From contig JALQPE010002608.1 of the NCBI GenBank assembly GCA_030407315.1, positions 1 through 64,000 of the forward strand: 64,000 bases of DNA, written 5' to 3'. Shown piece by piece: positions 697 to 48,949 of this stretch; position 1 is the first letter of the stretch; each line of letters opens with the position of its first letter. This DNA is from Asparagopsis taxiformis (Eukaryota > Rhodophyta > Florideophyceae > Bonnemaisoniales > Bonnemaisoniaceae). The translations under genes and the position numbers were made by a program. Below the pieces are notes generated by a model. The model was not told where the DNA came from and did no database searches. It saw only the letters and a list, made by a program, of their open reading frames with translations.

Positions 697-743
697 CGTC
701 TGTGTTTTCGGAAGTGGTCGCGGACGTCCAGTCTCTCTAGTAC
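697..743 (+). repeat. Left terminal inverted repeat of the giant transposon
   Basis: It pairs with 20764-20810 on the opposite strand, with about 7 mismatches in 47 positions. It contains CGCGGACGTCC and CTCTAGTAC blocks that recur in the adjacent subterminal array, which suggests transposase binding sites. Confidence 0.65.
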
Positions 744-810
744 GGGTCCTAGTCGGCCCGAGATTTACTAGAACAAATGAACGTCCGCGTCCAAAAAAAA
801 ATTTTAGATG

Positions 811-990
811 CGGACGTCCACTTTCTCTAGTACATATGGCGGAACACTAGGGCCGACATCCACTTTCTCTAGTACGTTTGGCGGAATACTAGGACCCGAC
901 ATCCACTTTCTCTAGTACCTATGGCGGAATACTAGGGCTCGACATCAACTTTCTCTAGTACATACAGCTGAATCCTAGGACCCGACATCC
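811..990 (+). repeat. Left subterminal array, ~43-bp units
   Basis: Four consecutive units start near 811, 853, 896 and 939, and a fragment starts near 983. Each has a GACGTCC/GACATCC box, then ACTTTCTCTAGTAC, then GCGGAAYACTAGG or a variant. The same GGACGTCC and CTAGTA boxes occur in the terminus at 697-743 and in the right subterminal region. Tandem boxes next to a terminus are typical of transposase-binding subterminal repeats in CMC-type elements; that role is inferred here. Confidence 0.7.
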
Positions 991-1115
991 AGTATACAAT
1001 ATATCAGCGAAAACCGGGAGGGAAGAAATTACAGCGGATGGTAAATTCAGGGCCCATATCGGACCGTATTTTATTCTCTCATTTACGAAACTGCTGGTAT
1101 ACAATACGTCTCTCT

Positions 1116-1270
1116 AGAATAGGAAATACATATCTGGTCAGAATAGGAAATAAATACCCGGTTAGAATAGGAAATACGTATCCAGCCAGAATACGGAATA
1201 TGTATCCAGCAGAATACGGAATATGTATCCAGCCAGAATATGTATCCAGCCAGAATACAAATACCTGTCA
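1116..1270 (+). repeat. 24-bp tandem repeat, about 6-7 copies
   Basis: Units read AGAATANGGAAATANNTAT followed by a CCAGCC or CTGGTC tail, repeated every 24 bases. One 23-base unit and one shortened unit occur near the end. The short open frames across this array are by-products of the repeat. Confidence 0.8.
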
Positions 1271-2068
1271 GCATATCGTCGATCACCCATCTCCCTCACT
1301 ATCGCGTTCTCCCTACCATCCGAACGCCATGCACCACCATCCGCACATACTTCAAGAACCCTCACGACCTTGATTACAAAAAATCCGCTCCTTCCCAATT
1401 CCATCCCCGCTTTCCTCGACACCACCCCAGCCCATTAAATCATCAAGACATCAAACACGAACATGGTCAGCAAAATCTTACACCACTTGAAACCCACTCT
1501 CACTTCTATCGTATGCCCCAAAATATACACATACCAGAAACACCTCACAGCTTCATTCCCCATCTTCCTACATCCCTTCTTCACTCTCCTTGAGTCCTGC
1601 CGTTCCTGCTTCACCACTCCTGCATCACATACACAACATCGGAATCAACCACAACAGTCAGATTCAAAAGCAACGCTTACCACGCAGATATCCTAGAAAC
1701 TCCCTTACTTACCTCTCATCCATCCTACACACAATACAAACCATGATCCAAAAACCTTGCAATGAATAATCAAAGTCAGCAGTCCATATCTTCGCAAAAC
1801 AATCTTGGCACTCAATGAAACTTACCTTCCGTCATCAACATTCCTGCATCATCTACACAACATCGGAATCAACCACAACAGTCAGACTCAAAACCAACCT
1901 TCCCTCGCAGCATACTTTCAAAACTTCACGTACCTCTCTTCCATCCTCCGCAATACACACCATGAGTCAACAGGCTTCCAATGAAAAATATCGCATCAAC
2001 GGAAATAGTCAGACTCAAAACCCACGCTTCCTCAACGCATACCCTCGAGGGTAGAGGATGGAACGAAG
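1271..2068. other. Pyrimidine-rich, G-poor subterminal segment without a gene
   Basis: The + strand is strongly enriched in C and T/A and poor in G. A block around 1610-1690 (containing CATCGGAATCAACCACAACA) recurs near 1840-1920, and a looser copy sits near 1975-2045. The open frames are proline-, serine- and histidine-rich, as expected from composition alone, and no domain is visible. The right arm at 19530-20260 has the opposite strand bias. Confidence 0.6.
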
Positions 2069-2106
2069 GTACGTGCGCGAATCTTGATCAAGATTCGCGC
2101 ACGTAC
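2069..2106. repeat. Perfect 38-bp palindrome
   Basis: The 19-base arms starting GTACGTGCGCGAATCTTGA meet without a spacer at a central TGATCA. It lies between the left subterminal repeats and the transposase gene. It could form a cruciform or bind a dimeric protein. Confidence 0.9.
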
Positions 2107-2703
2107 AAAGCAAAGGCGGTCAAAGAATATCAGTCGGTGATGAGGGCGGAGTGGAGCCTGCGGCGTCGACCGGACAGCTTTCTGCGTCCGCTTAAGTCTT
2201 GCTGTGCATACTCGAAATCATCGCCGGCAGTGAGATTGAGTATGGCCCAAGCCATGGTCTCTGAATCCCCGAACAATGAGATCCGGATCGAGAACAACGA
2301 ATATAAACATATAATCATATATATGAGAATCCATTTGCTTTCCTTACATGATCCGTGGCATATCCGCTGTAAAGCACATTCAGATTCCACGAAGTTCGGA
2401 AATAAAAAAGTTTATTATTACAAATGAATTAATTGAAAATTCATCTCCCAGGGCGGTCGTTCGTCCTTCCATGCACACGTTGCCAGCACGCAATGTGATG
2501 TAACAGTTGGAAATGATTGAACTCTCGGTTAAATTCCACCGTTGGGATGTCAGCTGGAGTGAGCACAAAACTACTACCCACAAAACTACGAACACGTTAC
2601 ATTCCAAGTCTCGAAAGCACCACAAAAATAAAATTGGTCGCATCTGGACGGCACAGTCTCCCCTGTTCAGCTCGCAATCCTCCCTTTTGCGTCAAAACTC
2701 GAC
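2107..2703. other. Leader region of the transposase gene
   Basis: No gene or repeat was recognised between the palindrome and the transposase start codon. It presumably holds the promoter and 5' UTR, but no clear TATA box could be assigned. Confidence 0.4.
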
Positions 2704-5700
2704 ATGGAATGCAAGTATGAAGGGTGCTTCTACTACTGCGTAGATGCTTATGCGCTCGCGCTGCATGAGCGAACGTGTCGCTACCGTTTCAACCCCTCTC
2801 CCCAACATTTCAACAACGCTCGTGTCCCTGCCGTCACCCATGAGCCTGCTCGAAACGGCGACCATGATTCCCCGCAACCCAGCTCCCCAGACCCAGAATC
2901 TGGTCGTGCTTCCTCCAGCGACTCACCCTGTGACGCTCCACTGCCACCAACCTCAACCCCCTCCCGCGCAGACCTCCTCGTGCAATCCCTCGCCGCCAGT
3001 CTCACAACCCTCGAGTACAAGGCCGGCGCTGGCCGCGTGAGCGAAGTCATCACCATCCTACAAGACCCCGCATTCTCCCTAGAAAAGTTCAACAGCGCCG
3101 TTCGCACCGTAGAAGAATGTCGCCACGTTACCGCTTCCATGGTCGAAACACATTTCCGCACCGAAGGTTACAAGAGCCACATCATTCCAGACAAAACTGG
3201 TAAGTACTCGGCACAGCTGTACCTCCGCGACCCAGTCGACATGCTCCGCAGGCAGTTAGCACTGGCTAACGACCAAAATACTCTCTTCCACCCCTCCCCA
3301 CAGACCGCCCCAGACGGCACCGCAATATTTTCTCATCCCCTACACACAGAATTCGCGAAAACGCTGCACCAGGTTACTAGACAGCGCGTGCAGCTCTCGG
3401 AAGATCCACAGGTCGTATGGGCAGAGGAAAATGATCCCACACCTTCCTCCTTTGCCGGCCTCCTCCAAGTGTACTCCGACAAGAGCAGCACAAGCCTCAA
3501 GAGCTCCGCAATCGTCGCATACCCCATACACGTCACACTGCTCAACTTCTCCGCCCCCCTCCGTCGCCACTGCATCCGTACCGGCCTCACCATCGTCGGG
3601 TATCTTCCGTACATTGTTAACCCTTCGTCCAACGCCTTGTTCGGTGATGAAATGCCGACAACCTCTAGTTCTGCTAGTCGCGCTCGCAAAATTGATATTC
3701 TTCATAAAGCACTCGAAAAAGTGTTTTCGTCCCTATCCACCGCGTTCTCTTCCGGGTTCCCCTGCACAGACTCCACTGCAACTGCCCGCCAATGCTTTCC
3801 CATCCTAGCCAATTATTGCTGCGACTTTCCAGAGGCCAAAGAGCTGTCATGCACTCGCAACAGCACTACCACCACACATCCCTGCCACCGCTGCTACATC
3901 CCCGCCACTCAACTTGAATCCAGCGCGCCACACCAGCCCCGCTCCCTCGATGATACACGCTCTGCACGCCAAGAGAGCGCTCAGGAGCATACAACTGCTC
4001 CGCTCGAAGCTCTCTCCCTCCTCGAACAACACTCTGTCCTCGAATCGACCGCTCTTTTACCCACCAACAGTCCCCTAGACCCCTACAACATTTTCTCCTT
4101 CGAGCCTCTGCACAATCTCCACCTCGGCATCTCAAAGCTCATCAAACAGTGCATTGTCCACCGCCTCAGCTCCCCAGACCTCACCACCACCACTGCCTCC
4201 CATTCCGGGACACCTCGCACCTTCAAGAAGGTGAAAAAATCCATCCTCGCCGGCTCAAACAGCATTCTGTCCGCTATCGAACGCGACTACTACATCACCG
4301 GTCTTCATGTCGACTTCTCCAAGGGTGAGAAGGGCACCAATTTGAACGGCCTCTTCACGGAGGACGGCATACGCGGCATGCTCGCAGCCAAAGACTATCA
4401 CCATGTCGACATGGTGTTCCCTTTCATCGCAGCATTCATTGACACATGCTGTGACGAAGTAGAGACAGCCCCCCTCACTTCCATCTGCACGCAATACTCT
4501 GACCTCGTCGCATGGGTCATGAAACGCGGTCGCATCAAGCACTGGACTGCCGCCGAACTAGAAAGCCTCCAGAACTCCATTTCCTATTTCAAACAATCAA
4601 TGCTCTCCACCCTCGGCCCATTCCACACCACAGGTCTCAAAACTTTCAAGTTCCATCTTCTAGACCATCTTCCCGGTGACTTGCAGAGATATGGCGCCCT
4701 GGAACACATTGATGCAGGCCCCTACGAACACTCGCATCTTCTGTTCAAACAGAGTTATAGGAAAACCTCTCGAAGGCGCTCCACAGCCATGGAAGAGACT
4801 ATTCGCCACATGGAATTCTCCTTGGCCACTCCAACTGGTCACACCCCATCGAACACATTGGGAAACCCACGCATGATATCGCCCACAGACGGTGCAGTAC
4901 TCGTTCGCGACGGATTCACCGTTGCACTGCACGACTTTGCCTCCCTGCTGCCCGATGCAACCCTCCTCGTTGCAGATATCGACGGACAGCCCGATCCTGC
5001 CACTCTTTTGCCTCTGCACAACTCCTCGTTCCCGTCTGGCACCATAACGCTATTCCAGCAACTCGGTGACACAGCTGCACAAGCGTTCCTCACCCTCGCT
5101 AGACTGCGCGCCACGGCAGAAGGCCCTCCAATACATGACATGGACATTTCCGTCACCGTGGTAAAGTCCGCCTACGTCATGGGAGGGTACGTCCCAGATG
5201 CCGACGACTTTGACCCGCACAGTGGCATGCTTCGCCCCACAAACGTGTCGAGGCACAAGCAGCAGCGCGTCTTTGCAACTTCATCATTCGGCCCCGCAAA
5301 GAGATCGCAGTACTCCTTTGTCGTCATCTCCGGAACTGCCGATGACTACAGAACCATATGGGTAGGGCGCGTCCTGGCACTGGTACGCCTGCAGTCTCCA
5401 AACCTGTTTCAACCTGTAGAACTCGCTTTCGTTCAGTATATGACCTGCTTTGCCCCAAAAACCGCTGTGGAAAAATCACTTGGGTGCATTTGTTTAAAGT
5501 GGTCCACATGGGACCCGGACAACGGATCCGTTGACAGCAATGACACTGCATCCCACAGTGCAGGTGGTCCTTGGTTTGACCTCATTCCTGCATCTACTAT
5601 ATCTGGCACCGTGCACATCGTACGAAGTAACTTTCCAGTCAAGCCATTTACGAAACAAATGCACTGGTCGGACCACCGTTTCTATCTCAACCGCTTCTAC

Positions 5701-5745
5701 ACCAACACTGATTACCAGTTCACAGATGATAATGAAGAAGAATAA
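2704..5745 (+). CDS. Transposase, Plavaka/KDZ/CMC-like, with N-terminal zinc finger
   Basis: 1013 residues, uninterrupted. The N-terminus has a C2HC zinc-finger pattern (C3, C8, H21, C25), followed by a Pro/Ser-rich linker of about 90 residues. The catalytic half has landmarks shared with Plavaka, Zisupton/KDZ and CACTA transposases: a CHRC knuckle near residue 397, the block PLHNLHLGISK (H470, H473, G475), a helical segment, and a late KFHLLDH...EHIDAGPYEHSH block (E667) followed by a K/R-rich stretch. These families cut DNA at subterminal and terminal repeats with an RNase H-fold DDE/D core. The exact catalytic triad could not be assigned by eye. The gene is convergent with the coiled-coil gene, only 77 bp away. 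Inference: this is the mobility gene of the 20-kb element. The superfamily is less certain than the transposase call. Confidence 0.7.
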   Translation: MECKYEGCFYYCVDAYALALHERTCRYRFNPSPQHFNNARVPAVTHEPARNGDHDSPQPSSPDPESGRASSSDSPCDAPLPPTSTPSRADLLVQSLAASLTTLEYKAGAGRVSEVITILQDPAFSLEKFNSAVRTVEECRHVTASMVETHFRTEGYKSHIIPDKTGKYSAQLYLRDPVDMLRRQLALANDQNTLFHPSPQTAPDGTAIFSHPLHTEFAKTLHQVTRQRVQLSEDPQVVWAEENDPTPSSFAGLLQVYSDKSSTSLKSSAIVAYPIHVTLLNFSAPLRRHCIRTGLTIVGYLPYIVNPSSNALFGDEMPTTSSSASRARKIDILHKALEKVFSSLSTAFSSGFPCTDSTATARQCFPILANYCCDFPEAKELSCTRNSTTTTHPCHRCYIPATQLESSAPHQPRSLDDTRSARQESAQEHTTAPLEALSLLEQHSVLESTALLPTNSPLDPYNIFSFEPLHNLHLGISKLIKQCIVHRLSSPDLTTTTASHSGTPRTFKKVKKSILAGSNSILSAIERDYYITGLHVDFSKGEKGTNLNGLFTEDGIRGMLAAKDYHHVDMVFPFIAAFIDTCCDEVETAPLTSICTQYSDLVAWVMKRGRIKHWTAAELESLQNSISYFKQSMLSTLGPFHTTGLKTFKFHLLDHLPGDLQRYGALEHIDAGPYEHSHLLFKQSYRKTSRRRSTAMEETIRHMEFSLATPTGHTPSNTLGNPRMISPTDGAVLVRDGFTVALHDFASLLPDATLLVADIDGQPDPATLLPLHNSSFPSGTITLFQQLGDTAAQAFLTLARLRATAEGPPIHDMDISVTVVKSAYVMGGYVPDADDFDPHSGMLRPTNVSRHKQQRVFATSSFGPAKRSQYSFVVISGTADDYRTIWVGRVLALVRLQSPNLFQPVELAFVQYMTCFAPKTAVEKSLGCICLKWSTWDPDNGSVDSNDTASHSAGGPWFDLIPASTISGTVHIVRSNFPVKPFTKQMHWSDHRFYLNRFYTNTDYQFTDDNEEE

Positions 5746-5822
5746 ATCTAAATCGCAGCACTCTATTGATAATGTACTACATGATAAGCCTTCTAGTCAA
5801 CGTCACATTTACTGCACTAATT

Positions 5823-8107
5823 TCAACCATCCTCCATTACGCCAAAACCGTTATCAGCAGTGGCTGCATGGCGCCGCTCCATGCCCCCATACTGTGGGGC
5901 ATTGATTTCGACATTCAGGTTTGCACTCAGGTGTCCAGCATATGGGTCAACGACGAAAAGTTCTGCGCCAATTAGTCCTTGCGCAATCACACAATCCATT
6001 ACAGCACCGAGGTTTGACGTAATATGCGATTGAATCCAATCCTCGGACACTAGAACAAGTGATGAGCAGCGGTTTACATCATCAACGACATGAACAATTC
6101 CAGACCCCTCTCCGCTTTGCCACACTTCAACAGCCTCTCTCGTCACAGTACGGCTTGCAAACACATGCCGTGACTGTGCACTAGTCCGCTGTTCGCTCTC
6201 GACAACGTCCGTTTCTTCCCTTGCTTGCGAGCCTTGGAGACAAGACATGCAGTACACCACCATACCAACTAATTGCTGAAAAGCTACCCCCACATATTGA
6301 CTGTACCGCCTTGTAAACTCCTTCTGCCGTGCACCTCCTTTCCCCTTCGGTTCATCCAAACACTCCACAGTAGTCACTAGCCAAGCATCCAGGCGCGCCA
6401 GCGTTAGTATGCTCGTCTCTATGTCCATTACTTGTTCTGGTCGTATCGAATAACCCCTGAAGATGTCCAGCACATTCACAGCTACTCGGTTGTTAAACCA
6501 TGCATCACCATTCACTTCCATTTCGAAGCTGTCAGGAACCATGCCTTTGCTGTATCGCAGCTCTGAGAACGGTGCCGTTCGCCACCTCCCCATATCCAAA
6601 TCACCGTTGCTTTCCCGTTTCAAAAGCTTCTCAGACGCTTCGCGCTTTTGATCCTCTCGCTCGTCCATCTCAGCTCGCGTCGTCAGCATCGTGCATCTAG
6701 ACATTAATTTCGTGTACCCCAGCGAACCGAACAATCTGTCCCTCGCATTACGCTTCCGTGCACTCATCACGTCGGACAGTTTCTGCGTCACCTTCACTTT
6801 CAATTCCTTGCTCCCCGCCACAGCCTCTTGACAGCACACACGCTGCTCCTCATCGGAAAACACATCACACCACGGACTTTGACGCAGTACGTGTCGCACC
6901 AAGTCATTCAGCAGATCACTCTCGTCCCTGTACGAAGGTGTATACCACTGCAGATTCTTGATGATATAGCCCGGAGGGGTAGCAATATATCCTACACCGT
7001 TTTCGCTCCAAAGTGTCCCTTCTACCGGCTCTACCTCGATGGTACGTCCAGTCCAACGTCTCTGCGTTTGTTCCGCTATAGGGTCCAGCTCCATAGTCTC
7101 GTTCTTGCACCACTTTGTCAGGTTTTCCTCAACCGCCCTAAGAACTCCAAGGTATTTCACAGGAATGGCTTTCTGTATTTTCGACTTACCGCCACCGTGA
7201 TCACTGATTCTACCTGTTCTCGCAATTGCAGTAAGGCTGGCATTTTCCGCCTGCAGAGTCTTCACCTTAGCCTCCAACGCAACTATCTCCGTGGTGAGCG
7301 CCTTGTTTGCTATGTCCTGGCTAAACACTTTTTTTCCAGCTCCGCGATCTTCTTCTTCTGCGCATTGATGCGACTCGCCATTAAATCGATGGATTCCGGC
7401 GGATGCAACCTCTCTGCCCTCACCGTCCCCCCATCTCGCACGCTATCGGGATTATGATGTCCTCCATCGGCAATAGCCTGACGTCGCGGGGGCGTTACGC
7501 GCATATTTGGCACCAATGACAGTCTGTTGTGACGAGGCCCGCACTCCGGCTGCTCTCTCCCCTCAGTACCACCTGACCGCCGATGATAGTTGGCATCCTG
7601 TGAACGTTGCTCAGAAACAACATCCCTTGCCGCTATCCTCGGGTCCCTGACTGCATTACCTGCTGGGGCTGATGTACTCGGCATAGTTGGCGCAGTGGGG
7701 GTCACAGCCTCCAGTGTCTCGCGAACCCCCGGCTGGGACTCCGTCTGCAGCACCTCCGCATCTGCCAACCCGGGAGGAACTACCTTTGCCATAGCACTCT
7801 GCCGCAATTCCAACATGTTTTGAGCCACTATCATGTCATCATCATGATGTTCACTGTCCCTGCGAGCACGCTTGCCTCGGTCAAGCCCCATCTCTCTCCG
7901 CGCCGTTCCTCCTTCCTCACTTTCTCGCTGCGGATCCCCAGTTCTGCGCCGGTCCGTCTTGCGACTACCGGACCGCGGTTCAATGCTGCCGGTAGGCCCA
8001 GACCGCTTCTTCGCACGGGATTGTCGGGCACTCGATACAGCAGCTGCTGACCGGGTTTTCTGGAGGCCCGGAGGCTTTGGAGCTTTCTTCGCAATACGCG
8101 GCGGCAT
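5823..8107 (-). CDS. Coiled-coil/basic accessory protein, two frames joined by a possible -1 frameshift
   Basis: Two overlapping minus-strand frames make one logical protein of about 760 residues. The first (8107 to 7310, 265 aa) begins with a Lys/Arg-rich disordered region, suggesting DNA or RNA binding or nuclear import, and enters a coiled coil ending in KKKIAELEKK. The second (5823-7328, 501 aa) continues the heptad pattern (LTTEIVALEAKVKTLQAENA). It then has a globular part with conserved-looking Trp, Tyr and Cys residues and the stretch VTQKLSDVMSARKRNARD. The frames meet at a seven-A run, and re-reading one base joins them. I do not recognise the family. Its position, convergent with the transposase, suggests a transposition accessory or DNA-tethering factor. 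Alternatives are an A-run indel, an assembly error or transcriptional slippage. Confidence 0.65.
7328..7334 (-). promoter_or_regulatory. Candidate -1 ribosomal frameshift heptamer A_AAA_AAG
   Basis: In the phase of the upstream 265-aa frame the codons read GAA AAA AAG, so the heptamer A_AAA_AAG lies in canonical X_XXY_YYZ phase. A one-base backward slip leads directly into the 501-aa frame and continues the coiled coil. A downstream stimulatory structure was not evaluated. A simple A7/A8 length error would look the same. Confidence 0.45.
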
Positions 8108-8342
8108 AATGAAGCTTTCCCGAAAGCGATGGAACGATTGAGTTGCACGAGATACAAAAAAGATTGCTGTATAGTGTCGGTAACCACAACGGTCTGCGAT
8201 GAACGTTCAGGTCAGGTCAAGTACCGGAGAATACGCCAACAGCCCAGATTGTATACGGTAGGCAGTCATCAACAGTATTTAATGAGGTACAATTACAGCT
8301 GTCGAGCTAGGCCGCGAGCACCCCTATGTCCGGAAGACGTCC

Positions 8343-8540
8343 TGATTTGAATTAAAATTTGGGCTATTCTCAAAAACATGCACATGTGAACATGTTTTTG
8401 AGATGGGGGTGTGCCGTACGGCACAATCGACCCGCTGAAATCGATGTTTTTTGCAATATTTTTTCTGCCCTGAATTGTAGAATTTCTGGGCTGGACAGCA
8501 ATGCAACTGAGCTGGACATCCACCGGGCGTCCATTTCAAC
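8343..8540 (-). repeat. ~200-bp palindromic repeat, copy A (inverted)
   Basis: This is the reverse-oriented member of a six-copy family confined to the giant element. In the forward sense a unit holds a GGACGTCC-type box, CCCAGAAATTNTAAAATTTCGGGC, the 16-bp perfect palindrome TGTGCCGTACGGCACA, and a hairpin with CTCAAAAACATG/CATGTTTTTGAG arms. It ends near AATTCAAATCA. Copy A lies about 230 bp beyond the stop codon of the methyltransferase-SET gene, opposite in orientation to copy B upstream of that gene. Confidence 0.85.
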
Positions 8541-8766
8541 TTGGTCGTGTATTTTGCATCTGCACGCATAACAGCATCCAAGCAGTCAGGTTCACTGCTC
8601 GGACGAAGTGCACCTAGAGTGTGAACGATTGGTTTTTGACAGGCGAGTACTGCTCAATAGGTTTCACCCTGGACTAATGGTGGCTGGACATGCTGCATTA
8701 TATGATATACTTCAACTCTGGAACGTAGCTTTATTTGTAGTCGAAATGAAAACATCTTTCGTGACC

Positions 8767-11700
8767 CTAATTCCATGCTCTAAACGCTGTCCCATAATGA
8801 ACGTAGAGCTCCTGCCCTGGACGGATATCGCGGATTGCACGTACTACAATGATCTTCGGATTTTCTAGGTCCTTCGCCTTGAGCTTCTTCCCCGTCGAAC
8901 CGCTGCTGTAGTTCTCGACAAACTCGACGTTGGCCATCCGCCTGGTGTCTTCCGCCGGAGTGTCCTCACCTCGCAAATACCGCGGGTCGTTGATGAACTG
9001 CGCCGAACAGAACGGAGCCGGAACAATCCAAATTGGATGCTCGATGTTTTCGTCGTCCTCCGCTGTTGCATACAGCTTGATGGCATACATCAAGAATGTT
9101 TCCTTCGTTATCGCCATGTGACCCTCTCCGTACGCGAACCTCATCGACTCCTTGCTCATATCAGAGTACACAACAGTTCCGTAGTATGCACATACTTCGT
9201 CGCCAACATTAAATGTCTGTTCAGCGAAGAGCCCTCTTCCTGCATTTGGATGCTTAATCAGCGATGGTCGAACGCTCAATTTTTTCGCAACACAATCGTG
9301 TGCCCGCATCACGCGAGGGTTTTCAGTTTGCAACCAGCGGCGCAGGGAAGGTGGCCAATAATGTACCGGTTTTTCCATGTGCTCGTGCGACGCAATCGAC
9401 TCTGGGCACAGCTGCCAGAGGTACTGCCGAATATATTTCGGGAACCTCTGGTACAGGGGAAGGCCAGGTGGGGGTTCGATGATCCTGCGTTCCCTCTGTG
9501 TACGCATCGTGACAGAGGGGGACGCCAAGAACTTCTCAGCACTCTGTTTCGCTTCTGTCGTGACCCTCATGTCAGTGTTGTTTGAAAGAATTACACGTGA
9601 CATGACTGCACACAGCTTTGGAAGCGATCGTGCCACACACAATTTGTCCATGTCACTGCCGACGAAAACACGGTGCTCAGGCAAGCTCATAGCTGCTTTT
9701 CCCGTTGCGAAAGTGCCAGAGAATGGATCGACAACAATATCACCAGGCTGTGAATGCTGGCTGATCAACTCCATCATGAGAGCGACGCTCTTCTGCTCTG
9801 CACGAACTCTGACCGTAGCACCGGTTGTGCTCCTTGTTCGCCACACCATCTCATTCGAATCGATGGCGGGCATATTGATGGTGACGTTGCACCACGCCGG
9901 GTACGTGCCGTCCATGTATCCGTGGTTCCTATAGGCCACCATCTCGCTTCCGGTCTTGAACGGAACACCTCGCTTCCAGAAGTGGATAGCGACCTCTGCC
10001 ATGTTCATGCGTTGGTACCTCTTCCGCCCCGGCATTTGATAGAGGTGCCCAGGTAGTCGGACAAACAACAGAGGTACCTCGTCAACGAAGAAAACTGAAT
10101 TCCGAACGACGTCCTCCTCCTCCTCGTCCTCCTCCTCATCCGCACTTTCTTCGCCACTGTGCTGCGATGCTTCGGAGTCCGAATTCATGGACGTAACCTC
10201 TTCTTCATCCGACCCGTCATCACTGGCAGCAGCATCGGTTGGGCCTTCTGACTGCGGTCCTTTGTACGTTTCCAAGTAATGGAACCATTCGTAGAACTGC
10301 AAAACGGAGCAGAACACGATGCCGTGGCCACCGGGGCGCAACAGCTCGTCAAACACTTCGATGCTAGCCTGCATATCTTCTGCAGTTAGCCTGTCGTACG
10401 AAGAGTTGGAATCGTTCCTCTTACGACGAACATTGTAGGGCGGATCAGTCAGAATGAGCTGAACGTTGCCCGTGATGGGCACGTGTTCTCGGCTCTCGTC
10501 GGCACTGACCAAATCTTCGAAAGGGACGTCGTACACCCGGCAATACTGACTCATTTTCGAAAGAAAGTCCTTTGCGAGAGCCTGCCCTTCACTTTCCTGC
10601 TCTTCTGTCGCATGGGGTGACGGTGACGGGGGAGACGGCCCTTGGGCAGTAAGACTGGTCCTCCCAGGTCCAAGTTGAAGCCTGGTTGTGTGTCTTGTCG
10701 ACGGAACCAAACCTCTCCCTCCTGTGTTGCGACGAGTGGGAGTGTCATCAACCGGCTTGGGGACCTTTTCTGCGTCCGCGGCTTGTGGTGCCGGGCGGAG
10801 GACAGCCATAACGTCTTCGTCGAGGGTGTCAAAGTACGCTGGCAGCTTGTCCGGATTTCCGCTTGACAAGTATATTTCCAGCGCCCCCCAGCGGTCGGAC
10901 TCCGGCCAGGTGTACAGGTCCGGGTTGACGATAAGAAACTGCAACCGGTCGAAGAACTTCCTCACAAGGTCCCTAAATGCACTGTGCTGCGCACTGGTTC
11001 TTGTCTCTACTTTTCCACCATATCCATCAGGATGAGATAGGGGAGCTTTGTCGTGGTAGAGATCTAGCTTCTGCTCCATCGGTGCGAATAGACCTTCATC
11101 GAGCACGTCAAACCAATGCTCACTGCTGTCGAAAATGATGTACGGCGCCATCAACTCTTCGAAGCTGGAAAACTTTGCGGCGAAGGCCACATCGGTCCAA
11201 GCATGGTATAAAACTTGAACCACGTAACAAGCTCGATTAGTGCTTTTCCGATGGGCTGGGACGCGTGCGGCTTCGTTCCCCTCTTCGGCCGCGTCGCCTA
11301 TTCGGCGACGCGGCAGGTTCTTGTTGTGATTTCGGATGATAGACAACGCTTGGAAATACATCAATACCTCGAACGTTTCCGGTGGAGCAAGAACGAAGGC
11401 GCTTGGTTCCCCGCGCTGCGGCGCCTGTAGTGGCGAAGGAAGCATGTTACATCCAATAAGGAAGGTCTGCGGCACGATCCCAGAAAGGATGCAGTGCTCA
11501 ACCCATTGCCCGATACGCTCATCCTGTCTTGAAAACTCGGCAATCGGTAATGCCAGACGAACAATCTGCTTGGCTCGCTCAACGTTCATCTCTGCCATGA
11601 CGATTTCGGCAACATCCGCCTCGACTCCAGCATTCTTCGAACGACCGCTGAAGGCCATGCTGAGTCGACCTTGCAGCGCCGCAAATTGTTCTTCCGTGCC

Positions 11701-11964: not shown

Positions 11965-12309
11965 AATGGAATGAGTGGAAATTCGGTACAGGATGGCGAC
12001 CGCTCGGCGAGACAGTCAAATTTGACGACGTATCTCGTGACGTTTGCACTCTTTCGTGAGGAACACTGGTTGATATCGAACGGAACAGAGTATACGGGTA
12101 CACAGCACTGGAAAGGTCTTGAAACCCGTAACCGGTGTAGGTAATAAGTTGTGACGGATACGTGGTAGAGAAAAATTTTAAAAAGATTGTGATTCCCTGT
12201 CTTTGAGTGTTGTACTGCACGGCCGCCATGGCGGCTGTGACTGCAGTCACATAGGTTGTCACAGGTGCATCACGCTTACCAGGTGAGCGACATCCGGACG
12301 GCCACTGGA

Positions 12310-12492
12310 CATGGGGATGTCCAGCTCAGATGCATTGCTGGCCAGACCAGAAATTCTACAATTTCGGGCAGAAAAAATATTGCAAAAAACATCGATTTGG
12401 GCGGTCGATTGTGCCGTACGGCACATCCCCATCTCAAAAACATGTTCACATGTGCATGTTTTTGAGAATAGCCCAAATTTTAATTCAAATCA
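12310..12492 (+). repeat. ~200-bp palindromic repeat, copy B
   Basis: Forward copy about 350 bp upstream of the methyltransferase-SET start codon. It retains the central palindrome TGTGCCGTACGGCACA and the CTCAAAAACATG hairpin, and forms an inverted pair with copy A around that gene. Confidence 0.85.
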
Positions 12493-13500: not shown

Positions 13501-13671
13501 GATAGCTATTGCATTACTGGCCAGCCCAGAAATTGTAGAATTTCGGGCAGCAAAAATATTGTAAAAAACCTTGATTTCAGCGGTCGATTGTGCCGTACGG
13601 CACACCCCCATCTCAAAAACATGTTCACATGTGCATGTTTTTGAGAATAGCCCAAATTTTAATTCAAATCA
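13501..13671 (+). repeat. ~200-bp palindromic repeat, copy C
   Basis: Forward copy lacking the 5' GGACGTCC box but retaining the palindrome, the hairpin and the AATTCAAATCA end. With the following spacer and copy D it forms a block that recurs downstream of the ParB-dioxygenase gene. Confidence 0.85.
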
Positions 13672-13863
13672 TGGTGTCTAATTTGGCCACAACGGCCCCA
13701 GGAACCGGAGCCGCCGCCCCGAGCGGGGTCATCACTGGCTTCTGTAAGCACTAACTGTAAGGCTAAATGGCGTCTCACGAAGGGTCGATTTCAGGCTCAA
13801 TACGCCAGGGACAGGTCTTGGTCCTTGTTCCATCATGGTCCCGCCCCACTCTCTCACGACCAA

Positions 13864-14060
13864 CCTGAAATGGACGTCCGGTGGATGTCCAGCTCGATTG
13901 CACTGCTGGCCAGCCCAGAAATTCTAAAATTTCGGGCACAAAAAATTGTAAAAAATCAACGATTTGGGCGGGTCGATTGTGCCGTACGGCACACCCCCAT
14001 CTCAAAAACATGTTCACATGTGCATGTTTTTGAGAATAGCCCAAATTTTAACTCAAATCA
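13864..14060 (+). repeat. ~200-bp palindromic repeat, copy D
   Basis: Full-length forward copy starting CCTGAAATGGACGTCCGG, about 350 bp upstream of the ParB-dioxygenase start codon. Confidence 0.85.
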
Positions 14061-14409
14061 GGGTGTTCCCCGGATAAAGGGGTGCTCGCAGCCGCCCCAA
14101 AAGCCGCCTAGCTTGACAGCTGTAATTTTAACACATTACACATCAAGGACACTGCCTGCTTCACGCCACCTCGTCAGGTTTCGAGAGCCCGACTCGGGCC
14201 CGTTCCGAACGGACACTCACATCTCGATTGCCTCTCTTGCATTCCAGCGGTCACGATAGGTGTGTACCTAACAAAATTTCGGTTGTATTGTGTTATTATT
14301 TCCAGCGATTGGCGTTCACGACCATTCTTCAAGCAACGTGAAACCTACCATCCACATCACTCCAATACGTCAACGTCAACCATCTCTTTTCCTTTCCAAC
14401 TCAACAACC

Positions 14410-17400
14410 ATGGCGGATACGCATTTCAGCAGTTTGTTTTCAACGGTTTGCGGCGATCAAGTGAGCGCGTCAGCGGAGTCGCGCGGACTCAAGCGCGGCG
14501 TCGATGTCAATTTGTTTGCGGACGTGGACGGTGCGGCTGTGCATATTGGGACGGCTTCGGTGAGCACTGCTGGTGGCGATGTTGGCCTTCCGCGCACGCT
14601 GCACAACCACAAGCTGCCGGAAACCGACGAGGCGGACTATATCGTCGTGCGCAACATTGCGACTAAGGACAAGTTCAAGGACCTCCCGTTCCCGTACATG
14701 TTTGATGGCGCCGAGGGACCGCCGGAGACGATGGGTGGAGCATACGCCGCGGCGTTTTACCCTTGGGATACTCGGATGATGCGCCCCGCTGCGGAGGATG
14801 GCCCTAGCGACATTCGTACCCCTGCTGCAGCGTCAAACTTCAACGCAGCGACGAACCAGGCCAGCTCGGGACGGATGCCCAGTACCGGTCCGGCAGGCGA
14901 AATCACTGGTTCGGGGGGTACGAAGCATCCAGCACGCTCCGTCCCGGTTTCGGGAGGCACGAAGCGCCCTGCTCGCTCTGCAAGAGCCTCCAGTGGAGGC
15001 ACGAAGCACCCTGCTCGCTCCAACGTCACCGAAGCTACTACGCAGGACGTAACCGAGGTGGACGACGAACCGGAGGTGGCGGAAAGCATTCGTGAGCAGC
15101 AGGGGACGCAAATTACGGTGCCCAAGTTTGTGACGTCGGATTACGTCGGAGAAGGAGCGACTGTGTTGGTGAGGCAGCTAGTGGAACCGGCCGTGACCCT
15201 TCGGGATGTGAAAGAAGACCACGTGGAGGACCTGCGCAACAATATGTTGGCTGTGGGGTATGTGAGCTCTTCGCGTATCACTGTGACGGTGCTGAGGTCG
15301 CAGAACACGCATCTGCCCGCCGACACGCGTCTGTTCCAGAATGGCAAATTCCATGCCAATGCGAACGTGACCGTGATCGACGGACTGCATCGTCTCAATG
15401 CTATGCATAGCATTGCGGATGACTTCACGCGCCTCACCCGTATGCACAGAACCAAGCTGCCACAGGACGCAAACCGCTTGCGCTGGGTTACTCAGCCTCT
15501 GGATGTGTACTACCTTCGCCGCAAGGACGACAGTGATCTTCAGCCTCATGAGATCATCCACAAGAGTGCAGAGTCGAACCATACGACTGGGACGCAACTG
15601 ACGGAGCGCTCCCTGGTTCGAATCTTGTCGTCCATCCAGCAGTTCATCCGTACGATTGCTGTTGCAAATAACGTGGAAAACGCTGGCGACTTGCGTGAGT
15701 CTGATGTCATCCGAACATTGTTCGAGGCGCAGTTCATGGGGATGATGAATTCAACGAACACGGCCCGGCGGTGGACGCGTTTGGCTATAGCAACGCTGAA
15801 GCATCCTGTTCTCGACGAAGTGTTGCGTGAGCTGAACAATTCCGAGCGCCGCAACGAGATTGGGATAACGCACCTGGACCACAAGATAGTGCGCGAGTTG
15901 CTGGAAGAAAACTTTGTCTTCGTCTTGCGTGGTCTTTCGGAGTACTTGAACCCTGCTCATGGTGGACGTCCGGATGGACGCTTTGACGTGAACGACTTCT
16001 ATACATACGTCCGTCGCGTGACTGCAATAGCAAATTCTCTGTACGCTGCGTATGGGCGCCCAAAGAGTATTATGCGCAAGTCATTTCTGAGCACAGAGAT
16101 GGCAATTGGGTCGGTTAAGCAGCCGAAGGAGTTGCAATGGCATCTCACCAATGCCATTGCAATGTATAGAGGGGACGACCGGAGCAGTGAGGTTCGAATG
16201 CGACGGAGAACCACGCGTTTACAGGATTTGGAAACGAACTTGAAAGAGTTTTTCAATCCGACATTGAAGAAGAAGACTAAGGCTCGACGCAAACGCCGCC
16301 CTTCTGCTGCCAATGTGAGACTCACTCACAAGAAGCAGCGGAATGTCGAACATGAGCCTGCTTCGCATGGCATCCGCCGCCGTTCACAGCGACTTCGCTC
16401 GACGGGGAGCACACGCCTCGAGGAAGAAGAGCCGGTTGTGGTACAACAATCCGCCGGGGAAGAAGAGCAGGCCGTTGTTGATAAACCCACCGATCAACAA
16501 CAAGCCACTGCTTCCGGTGATGAGGTTGACGAAGACTCCGCCCGTTCCCCCGATTCTGCCGTTGAGATTGTCCCCCAAGATAACCAACGTGCTGGTGCGA
16601 CTCCCTCCAACCAAGAATCTGTCCATACCGCTTCGGACGAGGAAGACAAACAGGGTGCAGACGAGGGCCAAGTCGAAAGCAAGGGGGTCCGCGAAGTGAC
16701 AATTACACTCACTGTTCCGGAAGGAGTGGAAGTCGATGAAGACGGTTACATCGTTCGTGACTCTCCTTCTGAACACGACCTCCTGTTCGACGACCGTATG
16801 CCATCTCTTCCTGACGATTTCGAAGTCAAAGACCGAGCCGAAGGGCATCATCTGGCGCAGCGTCCCGCGGACGTCATCGCATCGGTGAGGGTTGGCTGTC
16901 TGCCCCCGATTGAGCTCAGGTTGTTATTGGAGAGTGTGGAAATCGATGAGGAGGGCAGAGAGGTGAGGTATTTGAAGCAAGTGGCGATGGACCCTGTGTT
17001 TGAGGGGCTGCATATTCCGGAACAACATCGGGCTCGTCATCTTGTTTTCGAGATCGACACCATCTATCCGATGTTTTTCGCAGCGTGGAAGATGGCTGCC
17101 AAGGCGATGTGTGAGCCTACATCGACGTTTCTACCCTCGAGGCTGGACTTCGCCCAGGTTGCGCGAATGTCTACAAGCTGGAAGGATTCGTATGAGGCCG
17201 GCACTGGTATGGCGTACTTCCACAATTGCCGAACGGAAATCAACGAGCGAGGGTATACGGTGATGCACAATTTCGCGGATGTAAGCTACCTCGATGCGTC
17301 GGACAAGTTCCCATTTGACTTGGGTCTCATGGAAGAAATTCCTAACCAGGAATTGTTTCGGTACTTCTTGGGAACATGGGAGGGGGAGCAGGTGCACAAG

Positions 17401-18261
17401 GACCCTGGGAACCGGCAGCTGTGGAGTCCCATTGTCAATACGGGGGACGATGAAACAGATGAGAAGAACCGGAATGAGGGGAGGGCTCGCTTCACGTCTA
17501 CGCGCCACTGCCTGGTTGACTATGCCGAGAACGATGAGACGCATATCGACCGGTTCAAGTTTGTGACGCGGCGAGCCCTGCTGGATGTGTGGTTGGGAAT
17601 CCTTGTCCGGCTGATAGGGCTGGAGGAGTGCGGTTTACCGGGAGAAAAACTTGTCATGCCGGCATCTGGGGGACGGTTTTTGATAACGGGAAAGGGGTGT
17701 CCTCGGCAGGTCCCACACAATGATTTCCCTGTTCCTCCTCGCGACCGCAAAGATCAACTTCCGGGTTACTTTGTTATTGCCAACGGAGATGACCCATTCC
17801 CTATCTGGGTGTGTCCAGGGTCCCACAAGTACGTCTTTTCCAAAGCGCTGGAATTAGATATGTACGCCAAGACGATGAAGCTGAAGAAGGTAATCGTTCC
17901 GCCACGTTCAGTCTTCATCGGTCACGGCCATGTACAACATGCCGGGGCAGGGCATGTCGACAGAGTTGTGTCACACACGACAACGAGGTATCACACGTAT
18001 TTCAGGAATGCGTCGTATCCGATTCCCGACAATGTTTCGTTTGGTTTCATCAGGCGGTTGGGATTCGAAGAAGAAGTAATCCCCAATGCTCCGCGCCGGT
18101 CTGCCAGGCAAAGTCAACCGGCACCTGTCAATGTTCGCCACAAGACAGTTGTTCCCATCCCGGTCAAGAAAGATCGTAGGCCGAAGACAGGGCAGCTCGG
18201 AATGATGCGGATGAAGACGACAGAACTCGCAAGAGGAGAACCCTCACACACGATGAACTAG
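14410..18261 (+). CDS. ParB-like domain protein fused to a 2-oxoglutarate/Fe(II) dioxygenase-like domain
   Basis: 1283 residues from the ATG in good context (ACCATGG, 14410). The frame is open from 14290. Residues 120-250 carry three degenerate Gly-Thr-Lys-basic repeats (SGGTKHPARS type). Residues 250-420 look like the ParB/Srx fold: an N-terminal arm (VTLRDVKEDHVEDLRNNM) and the signature VIDGLHRLNA (D324, G325, H327, R328). A helical region, an Arg/Lys segment and a long acidic linker follow. The C-terminal part (about 870-1250) has a dioxygenase-like double-stranded-helix pattern: an HND iron motif (H1103, D1105), a distal histidine in GHGHVQHAGAG (H1174 or H1177), and R1185 or R1193 for 2-oxoglutarate. 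Possible substrates are a modified base, a protein side chain or another molecule; the sequence does not decide. Known: ParB-like domains are often joined to DNA methylases in phages and bacteria, and here the methylase is the divergent neighbour. Confidence 0.72.
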   Translation: MADTHFSSLFSTVCGDQVSASAESRGLKRGVDVNLFADVDGAAVHIGTASVSTAGGDVGLPRTLHNHKLPETDEADYIVVRNIATKDKFKDLPFPYMFDGAEGPPETMGGAYAAAFYPWDTRMMRPAAEDGPSDIRTPAAASNFNAATNQASSGRMPSTGPAGEITGSGGTKHPARSVPVSGGTKRPARSARASSGGTKHPARSNVTEATTQDVTEVDDEPEVAESIREQQGTQITVPKFVTSDYVGEGATVLVRQLVEPAVTLRDVKEDHVEDLRNNMLAVGYVSSSRITVTVLRSQNTHLPADTRLFQNGKFHANANVTVIDGLHRLNAMHSIADDFTRLTRMHRTKLPQDANRLRWVTQPLDVYYLRRKDDSDLQPHEIIHKSAESNHTTGTQLTERSLVRILSSIQQFIRTIAVANNVENAGDLRESDVIRTLFEAQFMGMMNSTNTARRWTRLAIATLKHPVLDEVLRELNNSERRNEIGITHLDHKIVRELLEENFVFVLRGLSEYLNPAHGGRPDGRFDVNDFYTYVRRVTAIANSLYAAYGRPKSIMRKSFLSTEMAIGSVKQPKELQWHLTNAIAMYRGDDRSSEVRMRRRTTRLQDLETNLKEFFNPTLKKKTKARRKRRPSAANVRLTHKKQRNVEHEPASHGIRRRSQRLRSTGSTRLEEEEPVVVQQSAGEEEQAVVDKPTDQQQATASGDEVDEDSARSPDSAVEIVPQDNQRAGATPSNQESVHTASDEEDKQGADEGQVESKGVREVTITLTVPEGVEVDEDGYIVRDSPSEHDLLFDDRMPSLPDDFEVKDRAEGHHLAQRPADVIASVRVGCLPPIELRLLLESVEIDEEGREVRYLKQVAMDPVFEGLHIPEQHRARHLVFEIDTIYPMFFAAWKMAAKAMCEPTSTFLPSRLDFAQVARMSTSWKDSYEAGTGMAYFHNCRTEINERGYTVMHNFADVSYLDASDKFPFDLGLMEEIPNQELFRYFLGTWEGEQVHKDPGNRQLWSPIVNTGDDETDEKNRNEGRARFTSTRHCLVDYAENDETHIDRFKFVTRRALLDVWLGILVRLIGLEECGLPGEKLVMPASGGRFLITGKGCPRQVPHNDFPVPPRDRKDQLPGYFVIANGDDPFPIWVCPGSHKYVFSKALELDMYAKTMKLKKVIVPPRSVFIGHGHVQHAGAGHVDRVVSHTTTRYHTYFRNASYPIPDNVSFGFIRRLGFEEEVIPNAPRRSARQSQPAPVNVRHKTVVPIPVKKDRRPKTGQLGMMRMKTTELARGEPSHTMN

Positions 18262-18641: not shown

Positions 18642-18838
18642 CCTGAAATGGACGTCCGGTGGATGTCCAGCTCAGATGCATGCTGGCCAGCCCAGAAATT
18701 CTAAATTTCGGGCACAAAAAAATATTGCAAAAAACATCGATTTGGGCGGTCGATTGTGCCGTACGGCACACCCCCATCTCAAAAACATGTTCACATGTGC
18801 ATGTTTTTGAGAATAGCCCAAATTTTAATTCAAATCAT
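18642..18838 (+). repeat. ~200-bp palindromic repeat, copy E
   Basis: Full forward copy about 380 bp after the ParB-dioxygenase stop codon, with the GGACGTCC box, palindrome and hairpin intact. Confidence 0.85.
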
Positions 18839-19185
18839 GGTGTCTAATTTGGCCACAACGGCCCCAGGAACCGACCGCCGCCCCGATCGGGGGCTATCAC
18901 TGGCGTCTGTAAGCACCAACTGTAAGCCGGAACCGGCCGCCGCCCCGATGGGGTTGTCACTGGCTTCTATAAGCACCAACTGTAAGCCAAAATCGCGTCT
19001 CACGAAGGGTCGATTTCAGGCTCAACACGTCAGGGACAGGTCTTGGTCCTTGTTCCATCATGGTCCCGCCCCACTCTCTCACGACCAACCTGAAATGGAC
19101 GTCCGGTGGATGTCCAGCTCGATTGCACTGCTGGCCAGCCCAGAAATTCTAAAATTTCCGAAAAATCAATTTGGTGGCCCAGCAT
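18839..19185 (+). repeat. Duplicated spacer plus truncated repeat copy F
   Basis: After copy E the sequence ATGGTGTCTAATTTGGCCAC begins a spacer that also follows copy C (13672-13863). It leads into repeat copy F at about 19089, as the spacer at 13672 leads into copy D. Copy F loses its palindrome and hairpin after about 19160. Inside this spacer a ~60-bp segment (GTAAGCACCAACTGTAAGCC type) is tandemly doubled around 18870-18990. Confidence 0.8.
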
Positions 19186-19529
19186 CTCCTGTGCCGAAAA
19201 TTCCCGCACTCACTTCTGATATACTATATCGTAGTAGTAGTAGTCTAGACGTGTTTCGCACTTGTACGCATCAGGGAAGGCTGCACGGAAGGTTGAGACT
19301 ACGCTACTTGTGTACCGCGTCGTCTGAAATAGCGAGTAGTGTTTGTTGTATAGTTGTGGAGTATGCGTCTAGTGGTTTGTAAAGCTTGCAGAACGGGATA
19401 GGGATGTGGGTGGCCCTATTTTATGAATACATGAGTACCAATATTCAGGGTTGACAAAGCGGAAAGTCATAGGCTCATACATGTTTGAGATTGCATAGTG
19501 GAGAAAATATTTACATCGAAATTTACATG

Positions 19530-20260
19530 GAGCTGATGGAGGTTTTAAGGATGAGGTATGAGAGGAAGAAAATTCTTCTGTGGTATGAGGATGTGTTCTG
19601 TGGGGGATGCAATCTTGGGATGGTACAGGGGGAGGTGGAAATGTACGGAGTGCGGGTTTAGATTGGAGTGTGATTCGGAGAGGAGTGCCGACAAGCATAT
19701 TATGGGGATTGGGGAGACGCTGCGGGGTGTTGGGGTAGTGAGGGCGGAGGAGGTGTTTAGGTGGGACCGTAGGAGGGTGCGGTTGAAGGCGCCGAGAGGA
19801 GGGGGTTTTTAGGAAAGTGAGGAGAAAGAGGGGGAGGGGGTGGCGTCTGTTCTGGCTGTGGTGAGTGGGGATGTGATGGAGAAGAAGGGGGTTATTGTAT
19901 TTGGGGAGGGAGGGGAGTGGGAGGAAGGGTGCGAAGTGGGGGGTTGATATGTGTTTCAGAGCGGGGAGGTTTCTGGGGAGACGGCGGGGGAGCGGGAGCG
20001 TGGGCCGGTGGTGGTGGTGTATACGGTATCGAAGATGCGGATGGCGTGGGGGCATGGAGCAGCTGAGGGAGGGAGGGGTGGAGCAGGTCGGGTACGGGAT
20101 GGGGAGTGAGAGGTTTTGGAAGAGTAAGCTGCAGGGGAAGTTTGTGTAGAGGGCGAAGGAGAGGGGTTGAGGTAGAGGAGAGAGGGTATTGAAGAACAAT
20201 ACGTTGCAAAGGTGATGGGGGAGAGCATGGTCGAGGAGATAGGGGGTGTTTTTGCCCTAT
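19530..20260. other. Strongly G-rich, C-poor subterminal segment
   Basis: The + strand has many runs of GGG and GGGG with very few C residues. The 276-codon frame on the minus strand is Pro/His/Leu-rich and looks like a product of this bias. A short + frame at 19558-19812 includes a CTEC knuckle and could be a relic of a zinc-binding protein, but I cannot name it. The runs give G-quadruplex potential. Confidence 0.6.
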
Positions 20261-20504
20261 TCTGAGGTAGTATGAGGACTGGTTATACGAAATCTGTACG
20301 GTAGAGCAGAAAAGTAGGTATGGAATGGAGGTGTGCACCGTGGAAGCGGGGATAGGTAGCTGAAAATGCGTGCTAGAGTGGTATTGGGGGTGTTTGAGGT
20401 ACAGTACGGGGGAGGTGAGCACCAACTGGAAGGGGGTGTGAGCGAGAGGATGAAAAAATTAAAGACAAAATTTGAGTCGACCGACAAGGAAAAATAGAGT
20501 GGTC

Positions 20505-20763
20505 GCTGTGATGGATGCGGACATCCATGTCGAGCACGGCGGCAGAAATTTCTGGGGTCGAAATTTTTGAATTTCTGAACCGGCGCCCGTCCTAGGTGGA
20601 CATAGACATGGCGGAAGTCCATCCTGAGGGGGACATCCGTGGTACTAGAAACAATGAATGTCGCCCTAGTAATACTAGACGTACTAGACCACATGGACGT
20701 CCGGTTCTAGGCGGACATCCAAAAATACTGGAGAACATGGACGTCCGCCTAGTAATACTAGGT
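20505..20763 (-). repeat. Right subterminal repeats
   Basis: Contains several GGACATCC, GGACGTCC and TAGTAATACTAG boxes with irregular spacing, in opposite orientation to the left array at 811-990. A TTTCTGGG-type block near 20550 resembles part of the ~200-bp internal repeats. Confidence 0.65.
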
Positions 20764-20810
20764 GTACTAGAGGTTGTGGACGTCCGCGTCCATTTCCGAG
20801 AACACAGACG
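20764..20810 (-). repeat. Right terminal inverted repeat of the giant transposon
   Basis: Reverse complement of the left terminus with about 7 mismatches in 47. The outermost shared bases are CGTCTGTGTT. Copia-like sequence starts immediately beyond it. Confidence 0.65.
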
Positions 20811-23394: not shown

Positions 23395-23396
23395 AA

Positions 23397-48930: not shown

Positions 48931-48949
48931 GACACCTCACTCCCCCCGG

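Follow-up and report, generated by a model that had tools for sequence, protein, structure and literature searches.

Giant elements of the EnSpm type that carry several accessory genes have been published for red algae, as have algal transposons with ParB and N4/N6 methyltransferase (MTase) accessory proteins (PMC12477816). One of the latter, Sola1-1_Ec32 of Ectocarpus, is a 21.5-kb transposon with a 1,104-residue ParB-like and N4/N6 DNA MTase protein, and proteins of this type have been proposed to bind and modify the DNA of their own element (PMC12477816). In fungi, transposons including PlavakaB have a TET/JBP oxygenase beside their transposase (PMC12730594), and in Amoebidium giant repeats are flanked by Plavaka (PMC11244446). 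Here, an element of about 20 kb is described, located at positions 697 to 20,810 of a 64,000-nucleotide stretch of Asparagopsis taxiformis DNA (assembly GCA_030407315.1, contig JALQPE010002608.1, positions 1 to 64,000); this whole stretch is referred to as the window. It is close to certain that the element is a member of a giant Plavaka-type transposon family, of which there are about a thousand copies in the assembly. It encodes a DNA MTase joined to a SET domain and a ParB-like region joined to an oxygenase-type domain, and it is these two fusions, together with a set of conserved palindromes, that are new here, giant algal transposons being already known.

Petroll et al. (2025; doi 10.1016/j.cub.2025.04.044) are said to have held a single giant Plavaka lineage responsible for the genome expansion of Bostrychia moritziana. 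As characterised in passages that cite this work (PMC12477816), its red-algal giant Plavaka/EnSpm-type transposons resemble the present element in giant size, red-algal host and the presence of accessory genes. The likeness to Sola1-1_Ec32 is that of a giant DNA transposon having ParB-like and amino-MTase domains; however, going by the relevant passages, its transposase is of another superfamily and its ParB and MTase parts are in one protein (PMC12477816), whereas the present element has two proteins, one combining the ParB-like region with an oxygenase and the other the MTase with SET. The fungal TET/JBP transposons share with the present element the CMCT Plavaka transposase, the 2-3-bp duplications and an oxygenase gene beside the transposase. 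They differ in the type of oxygenase, on present evidence, and in their termini (TGT..ACA or CATCA..TGATG, versus CG...CG here), and no DNA MTase-SET fusion is found in the passages describing them (PMC12730594). A SET histone methyltransferase is also present on the oomycete HarbingerS and MuDR transposons, for which the same passages leave a DNA MTase fusion unmentioned (PMC12730594). The bdelloid rotifer protein N4CMT is comparable in being a bacterial-type amino-MTase fold in a eukaryote, but here the DPPY motif and a closer match to CcrM point to adenine N6, and the MTase is fused to SET (PMC8885841, PDB entry 8s9m). In a literature search covering titles, the openings of abstracts and passages, neither an MTase-SET nor a ParB-oxygenase fusion was found in a transposon. 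An initial annotation of this DNA had called the combination a system not known to its author, which is too strong in view of the published passages on ParB and N4/N6 MTase proteins and on giant red-algal EnSpm-type elements (PMC12477816).

The transposon, its transposase and its copies

The element is bounded by inverted repeats of 47 bp, which continue inward into mirror-image arrays of short motifs, and it contains four genes, as listed here with their coordinates in the window and their strands.

697..743, + strand: left terminal inverted repeat, beginning 5'-CGTCTGTG; pairs with the right end at 40 of 47 positions
20764..20810, - strand: right terminal inverted repeat, ending CACAGACG-3'; complementary to the left end
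720..1000, + strand: left subterminal array, CTAGTAC five times, with GGACGTCC/GACATCC motifs
20480..20790, - strand: right subterminal array, mirror image, GTACTAG three times, with GGACGTCC/GGACATCC motifs
2632..5745, + strand, first Met 2704: gene 1, Plavaka-type transposase (Pfam match, conserved residues)
5823..8206, - strand, first Met 8107: gene 2, coiled-coil-type accessory reading frames, of which the window copy has two that overlap
8767..12015, - strand, first Met 11964: gene 3, DNA MTase-SET fusion (Pfam, relatives)
14272..18261, + strand, first Met 14410: gene 4, ParB-like / 2-oxoglutarate (2OG)-Fe(II) oxygenase-type protein

Both the inverted termini and the mirror-image arrays are as the initial annotation had described them, and the motifs are concentrated at the ends: CTAGTA/TACTAG is found 15 times in the outer 404 and 411 bp (mononucleotide shuffles: mean 0.37, maximum 4 in 2,000), three times in the 19.3-kb interior and 10 times in the 43.9 kb outside the element. 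In the assembly containing the window (141.5 Mb in 3,156 contigs), the exact 33-mers of the left and right ends occur 1,228 and 1,183 times, respectively, with no occurrence of the reversed controls. The ends also recur in pairs. From the 189 termini listed on contigs up to C193, 26 pairs of neighbouring, inward-facing left and right ends are obtained (14 of 10.0-12.0 kb, two of 14.2 and 15.6 kb, six of 20.0-22.5 kb and four of 26-40 kb), besides two pairs with same-type ends; these size classes are not true proportions, as contig breaks favour short elements among complete pairs. Identical flanks at the element end are observed on separate contigs (C2479:135692 and window position 697; also C2177, C2178 and C2481), which suggests that these are allelic or duplicated contigs. 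Because allelic contigs may exist, the counts of end copies may be inflated. If 900-1,050 copies were all full length, they would make up at most 18-21 Mb, or 13-15% of the assembly, which is an upper estimate.

Gene 1 matches the Plavaka transposase domain PF18759 with an E-value of 2.9e-24 (86.3 bits, cut-off 26.3), and this domain is present in all 11 transposase relatives found. D283, C418-x2-C421, H675-x3-H679 and E699 are invariant in nine aligned rows (gene 1 and eight of the 11 relatives), and the candidate second aspartate, tentatively assigned in YCCDFPE, is an asparagine in one row (P0077). Judged by its sequence, the transposase is of the Plavaka (CMCT) type and not of the KDZ type. 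The label "KDZ-like" of the initial annotation is to be dropped, as Plavaka is grouped with EnSpm/CACTA (CMCT) and has no sequence similarity to KDZ, according to the passages of a 2025 paper (PMC12730594). The 2-3-bp target duplications seen here are those of Plavaka (CMCT) and not the 8 bp of the KDZ transposon Zisupton (PMC12730594). The termini, CGTCTGTG..CACAGACG, match neither those of PlavakaA (TGT..ACA) nor those of PlavakaB (CATCA..TGATG) as given in the same source, and the element is therefore filed under neither.

These duplications were examined in 19 flank pairs, a 20th (C104) having been dropped as mis-paired; they are of 2 bp in 13 pairs and of 3 bp in one (C102), and the other five have none. 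Thirteen identical 2-bp flanks in 19 correspond to P = 4e-12 at a match probability of 1 in 16. The target-site duplication that the initial annotation had proposed to look for is thus present in 14 of the 19 pairs and absent from the window copy, whose flanks are TA and CA. When the joined flanks are compared with the element loci and window sequences, two clear empty sites are found, both inside other copies of the element. The C20 element is inserted in gene 2 with duplication of AT, the uninterrupted sequence being that of window 6329-6446 (96.7%), and the C102 element in gene 4 with duplication of TAA (window 15809-15925, 96.7%). Two further candidates are C117, which is imprecise, and C164, an 80% alignment whose right side has no real match; for the window insertion, no empty allele was matched among the element loci compared.

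The initial annotation had placed all four genes between the termini. Genes 1, 3 and 4 are linked to the ends and to each other. In five of the six pairs of 20.0-22.5 kb, 400-base probes of genes 1, 3 and 4 are in place (15/15, 96.8-100%); in the sixth, C138, gene 3 is listed on the strand opposite to that expected, so that this element may be chimeric or nested. Collinearity with the window is also seen in two further copies, over 3333-8769 (99.2%) and 3255-8769 (99.8%). Genome-wide, 36-mers with at most two mismatches give 1,044 places for gene 1, 954 for gene 3 and 909 for gene 4, the controls giving 0. The following counts are among the gene and end matches listed, with exact ends required. 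A left end lies 1.5-5 kb outside gene 1 in 52 of 81 places (wrong strand 1/81, wrong side 0/81), and gene 4 is accompanied by a right end in 33 of 50 (controls 2/50 and 0/50). Gene 3 has gene 1 upstream in 36 of 81 places (controls from gene 1: 0/100 and 0/100) and gene 4 downstream in 23 of 81 (controls 0/81 and 2/81), and it has a left end in 17 of 61 and a right end in 12 of 61. Seen from the ends, gene 1 is inside 52 of 91 left ends and gene 4 inside 33 of 100 right ends. In C12:302749-318378 and C113, genes 1 and 3 are present, and gene 4 is not listed between the ends, as would follow an internal deletion. The outcome that the initial annotation had named as speaking against its reading, ends that do not recur together and genes that are unlinked, is not what is seen within this genome.

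The accessory proteins

The domains recognised in genes 3 and 4 are the following.

9589..10557, - strand: beta-class amino-MTase domain with the DPPYN motif; modelled fold CcrM-like
8791..9240, - strand: SET domain (NDPRY...ANV; ELYVHYG), by Pfam and alignment
15085..15591, + strand: ParB-like region (VDGLHRxxA motif), a weak assignment
17086..18030, + strand: oxygenase domain with H1149-x-D1151; model resembling AsqJ/KanJ in fold

The DNA methyltransferase-SET fusion of the initial annotation is borne out, as N6_N4_Mtase (PF01555, 3.1e-15) and SET (PF00856, 1e-6, 29.5 bits versus a cut-off of 22.4) are both matched in one open reading frame with conserved catalytic residues; searches of NCBIfam and PHROGs with the whole protein also match MTase families. 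In the MTase motif, DPP is invariant in the aligned rows, the fourth position being F in two rows and Q in P0012. We take DPPY to favour adenine N6, and SPPY to be the cytosine N4 motif. The model of this domain resembles N6-adenine MTases, and CcrM is a closer match than rotifer N4CMT (PDB entry 8s9m). By PF01555, motif and modelled CcrM-like fold, the MTase is assigned to the beta-class N6-adenine type, with N6-methyladenine (6mA) as its predicted product. In the SET domain, N1009 and Y1074 are invariant in 18 of 18 rows, and a lysine methyltransferase is predicted; NDP is found at the place where, we assume, NHS is usual. The database holds 57 relatives of the fusion; identity is 99% in one of them and 25-37% in nearly all the rest. 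Both domains are annotated in 23 of the 57, and the catalytic residues are kept in 17 aligned relatives. As to linkage with the transposase in another species, the longest contigs of the MTase-SET relatives and those of the transposase relatives differ in length. A viral MTase-SET protein was also considered and rejected, since the loci in viral contigs, at least 41, match only MTase segments (40 within residues 623-830, one within 518-573).

In gene 4, of the ParB-dioxygenase fusion proposed initially, the oxygenase-type domain stands with its HxD...H motif, and the ParB part rests on weak evidence. The fold matches listed for the modelled oxygenase domain are small-molecule 2OG oxygenases, which we take to be of the PhyH type. 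Neither TET/JBP nor ParB is among the fold matches listed for gene 4, in a list filled by one fold, which leaves room for both. HxD is kept in the seven relatives of gene 4, one row ending ahead of the second histidine. In the ParB-like region, DGxHRxxA is invariant in six rows, and the ParB-like phrog_1033 matches three of six members (best E 0.011), phrog_3264 one. Pfam ParB is not matched by this region, the best Pfam family being AFG1_ATPase (0.0051, one member), and a PDB sequence search gives six weak matches, none of them ParB. For the whole protein, NCBIfam and PHROGs give nothing, Pfam no family over its cut-off, and a PDB sequence search with gene 4 and its profile no match at E 10. 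Relatives borne by viruses, and with them a viral origin, were rejected, as none of eight pattern stretches in viral contigs was confirmed; in contigs of prokaryote genomes it was none of nine. The window frame has 1,329 residues, when frames of 1,364 residues are found in 27 of the 34 other scored copies, and 32 of these 34 align to residue 1320 only, the window copy diverging after it. For a relative of the MTase-SET protein (P0028) and one of the ParB-like/oxygenase protein (P0063), the longest contig is in both cases of 15,726 bases, and the two may lie on one contig.

Gene 2, for which no Pfam family is over the cut-off, is where the description of all four genes as long and open fails. 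In the window copy, the frame from Met 8107 stops after 265 residues and continues in the overlapping frame 7442..5823. Among 30 gene 3 loci, gene 2 is broken in 27 and is open to the end of the compared stretch in three (L041, L050 and L057), where that stretch is short of the whole gene. The stop positions recur (265 residues in 13 of the 30 loci, 134 residues in nine) and could be shared inherited breaks or introns; the C250 copy has a break in the downstream frame as well.

Genes 3 and 4 are intact in the copies scored, the former being full length in 43 of 43 scored places (the best of 4,142 candidates) and the latter covering at least 1,320 of its 1,329 residues in 35 of 35 (the best of 4,674), the window included and without stops in each case. 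Across the 30 gene 3 loci, one of which is the window, 27 differ by 1-7 of 3,249 nucleotides, two loci with an indel being left out of this comparison. The 16 variant sites are 10 synonymous and six non-synonymous, when 28% synonymous is expected by our own weighting (P 0.004). The copies have spread recently.

Palindromes and gene-less partners

Intergenic repeats of about 95 bp contain GTGCCGTACGGCAC and a 36-bp palindrome, which is present in the window at five positions.

8368..8403, - strand: 36-bp palindrome, copy 1
12432..12467, + strand: 36-bp palindrome, copy 2
13611..13646, + strand: 36-bp palindrome, copy 3
14000..14035, + strand: 36-bp palindrome, copy 4
18777..18812, + strand: 36-bp palindrome, copy 5

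The palindrome is exact in these five copies and in four of the element at C20:597-10640, with no diverged instance in either, and the rest of the window has none at up to five mismatches. Genome-wide there are 7,333 occurrences and none of the control. When the nine copies are compared without gaps, identity drops to 40-76% per 12-bp block at more than about 40 bp on the upstream side and 60 bp on the downstream side, and small indels contribute to this drop. Exact palindromes are also found 61 times in the 30 gene 3 loci, three times in the 15.6-kb C12 element and twice in the middle of the C157 element. The paired elements C20, C12:264414-275483, C14 and C11 have four, six, six and seven, respectively, and no k-mer of genes 1, 3 or 4 is listed inside them, the sequence being read for C20 only; in the last three, a group of minus-strand palindromes is followed by a plus-strand group.

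The left ~2.8 kb of the C20 element correspond to those of the window element (91% identity in the first 1.3 kb and ~75% in the rest), as do its right ~1.85 kb (93%). It has no frame longer than 212 residues, and tblastn with the four proteins gives no match at 1e-3 either in this element or in the 6-kb middle of the 10.1-kb C157 element. Both of the elements examined among the 14 of 10-12 kb, C157 in part, thus seem to be non-autonomous. Because the palindromes are kept in elements that lost the genes, their conservation suggests a role in cis.

Possible roles of the accessory proteins

Judged from their domains, it is moderately probable that the accessory proteins have the chromatin of their own element as their target, and this is the reading that we favour. 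The transposase would recognise the terminal inverted repeats and the subterminal CTAGTAC arrays and move the element with 2-3-bp duplications. In the likeliest form, the palindromic modules would be bound by the ParB-like/oxygenase protein, or else by the gene 2 product, and the MTase-SET protein would place 6mA on the DNA close by and a lysine mark on the nucleosomes there. The oxygenase would more probably remove or alter an N-methyl mark on bases or a mark on proteins, or make a modified base, than oxidise 5-methylcytosine (5mC). Such binding and marking would keep the copies expressed and accessible, or would distinguish them from host DNA. The more specific proposal, in which the palindromes dock proteins of the element that write 6mA and a histone lysine mark while the oxygenase edits the marks, is tentative, and we regard it as rather unlikely in this full form. 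In many eukaryotes, 6mA is reported with permissive chromatin and is written by MT-A70 enzymes, according to passages of a recent paper (PMC12695648).

Several points weigh against the favoured reading, in which activity, expression, methylation and binding are all predicted. In the published passages, active 6mA in eukaryotes is known for MT-A70 enzymes and not for the class of gene 3 (PMC12695648). Among PDB sequences, the best matches of the SET domain are mixed in kind and weak (KMT5A, E 0.27; KMT2, E 0.5), the gene 4 model is of low confidence (mean pLDDT 54), and for the weakly assigned ParB-like region phrog_36987, of unknown function, scores better than the ParB-like family (0.0016 versus 0.011). 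The palindromes could be parts of promoters or terminators, or leftover promoters. Gene 2 stops early in loci whose gene 3 is intact, the window's own included, and as it is broken in 27 of 30 copies it may be decaying or dispensable in each copy, supplied in trans, or of another gene structure, with introns. At many of the gene places listed, the partner is missing from where it is expected, to which broken contigs, elements without genes, deletions inside elements, the requirement for exact ends and the limits of the matches listed can contribute. The target duplication is missing in five of 19 end pairs and in the window copy. Finally, the intactness of genes 3 and 4 and the 10 synonymous sites among 16 are biased, the scored copies being the best protein matches.

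It is also possible, with a probability that we place as low as that of the docking proposal, that the proteins counteract silencing, as in the evasion model of the initial annotation: the oxygenase would take methyl groups off histones or DNA bases, with the MTase-SET protein competing with host marking. In the published passages, fungal transposons have TET/JBP oxygenases thought to act in this way, and SET genes are present in oomycete transposons (PMC12730594); in addition, the gene-less C20 element shows a mild CpG depletion (observed/expected 0.85, TpG 1.23). However, silencing by 5mC is doubtful here, as the assembly gave no match to the C5-cytosine MTase family PF00145, in a search that was positive in 10 of 14 control genomes, all prokaryotes, and as CpG observed/expected is 0.97 in the window element and 1.03 to its right. 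Since the oxygenase also has small-molecule 2OG enzymes as its listed fold matches, erasure of 5mC is unlikely, and the TET/JBP background invoked initially probably does not carry over to this element. Removal of histone or N-methyl marks by the oxygenase is possible. With little sign of 5mC, a reading centred on 6mA fits better than one of 5mC erasure.

Somewhat less likely again is that genes 2-4 are plain cargo, captured and open only through a very recent burst. With copies that are nearly identical, little selection is needed for frames to stay open; most copies compared already have a broken gene 2, and two elements of 10-12 kb have spread without the genes, presumably helped in trans. 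Against this stand the relatives described above, as both fusions are long-lived: that of MTase and SET recurs with both domains and its catalytic residues at mostly 25-37% identity, and the ParB-like/oxygenase protein keeps HxD. A segregation or copy-organising system, with clustering like that of parS and ParB and the marks secondary, would be in line with exact, multiple and orientation-grouped palindromes and with the ParB-like motif of gene 4, but it is very improbable, as partition is unnecessary for integrated copies and no ParA-like family is found in the seven of 10 element reading frames of at least 200 residues that were scanned.

Outside the element, overlapping frames of 207-328 residues directly to its right (window 21046-24739, + strand) look like a broken long gene or mobile element. 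Ty3-type retrotransposon frames, gag and reverse transcriptase/RNaseH/integrase, are found at 44917-50896 (- strand), with no direct pair of long terminal repeats within 42501-53000 at E 1e-10. At 55186-59445 (+ strand), a 1,419-residue frame combines NB-ARC and WD40 repeats with a TIR domain at its C terminus, an NLR-like immune-receptor architecture. Elsewhere in the assembly, contig C469 (224,060 bases) is a plastid contig with phycobilisome genes, to which two other contigs have one match each. Two of its phycobilisome genes have identical scores and are 177,170 bases apart, and the contig may wrap round a circle of about 177 kb. The best PDB chains of its two allophycocyanin genes are 5tjf, 5y6p, 6kgx and 1kn1, which we take to be red-algal; by these genes, too, the host is very probably a red alga, as the initial annotation supposed.

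If the accessory domains act as suggested, this would be a transposon with a DNA writer, a histone writer, an editor and matching address sites, and its spread would be a natural experiment in escape from control. The near-identical copies and their gene-less partners make the needs in cis and in trans directly testable, and the palindrome count is a new handle that predicts where marks should be located. If the giant elements of Petroll et al. (2025) have the same fusions or palindromes, the present element would be a further member of that lineage. If the element does mark itself at its own palindromes, a single epigenetic programme, encoded by the element, would govern about a thousand dispersed copies in a host genome without a detectable cytosine-methylation enzyme.

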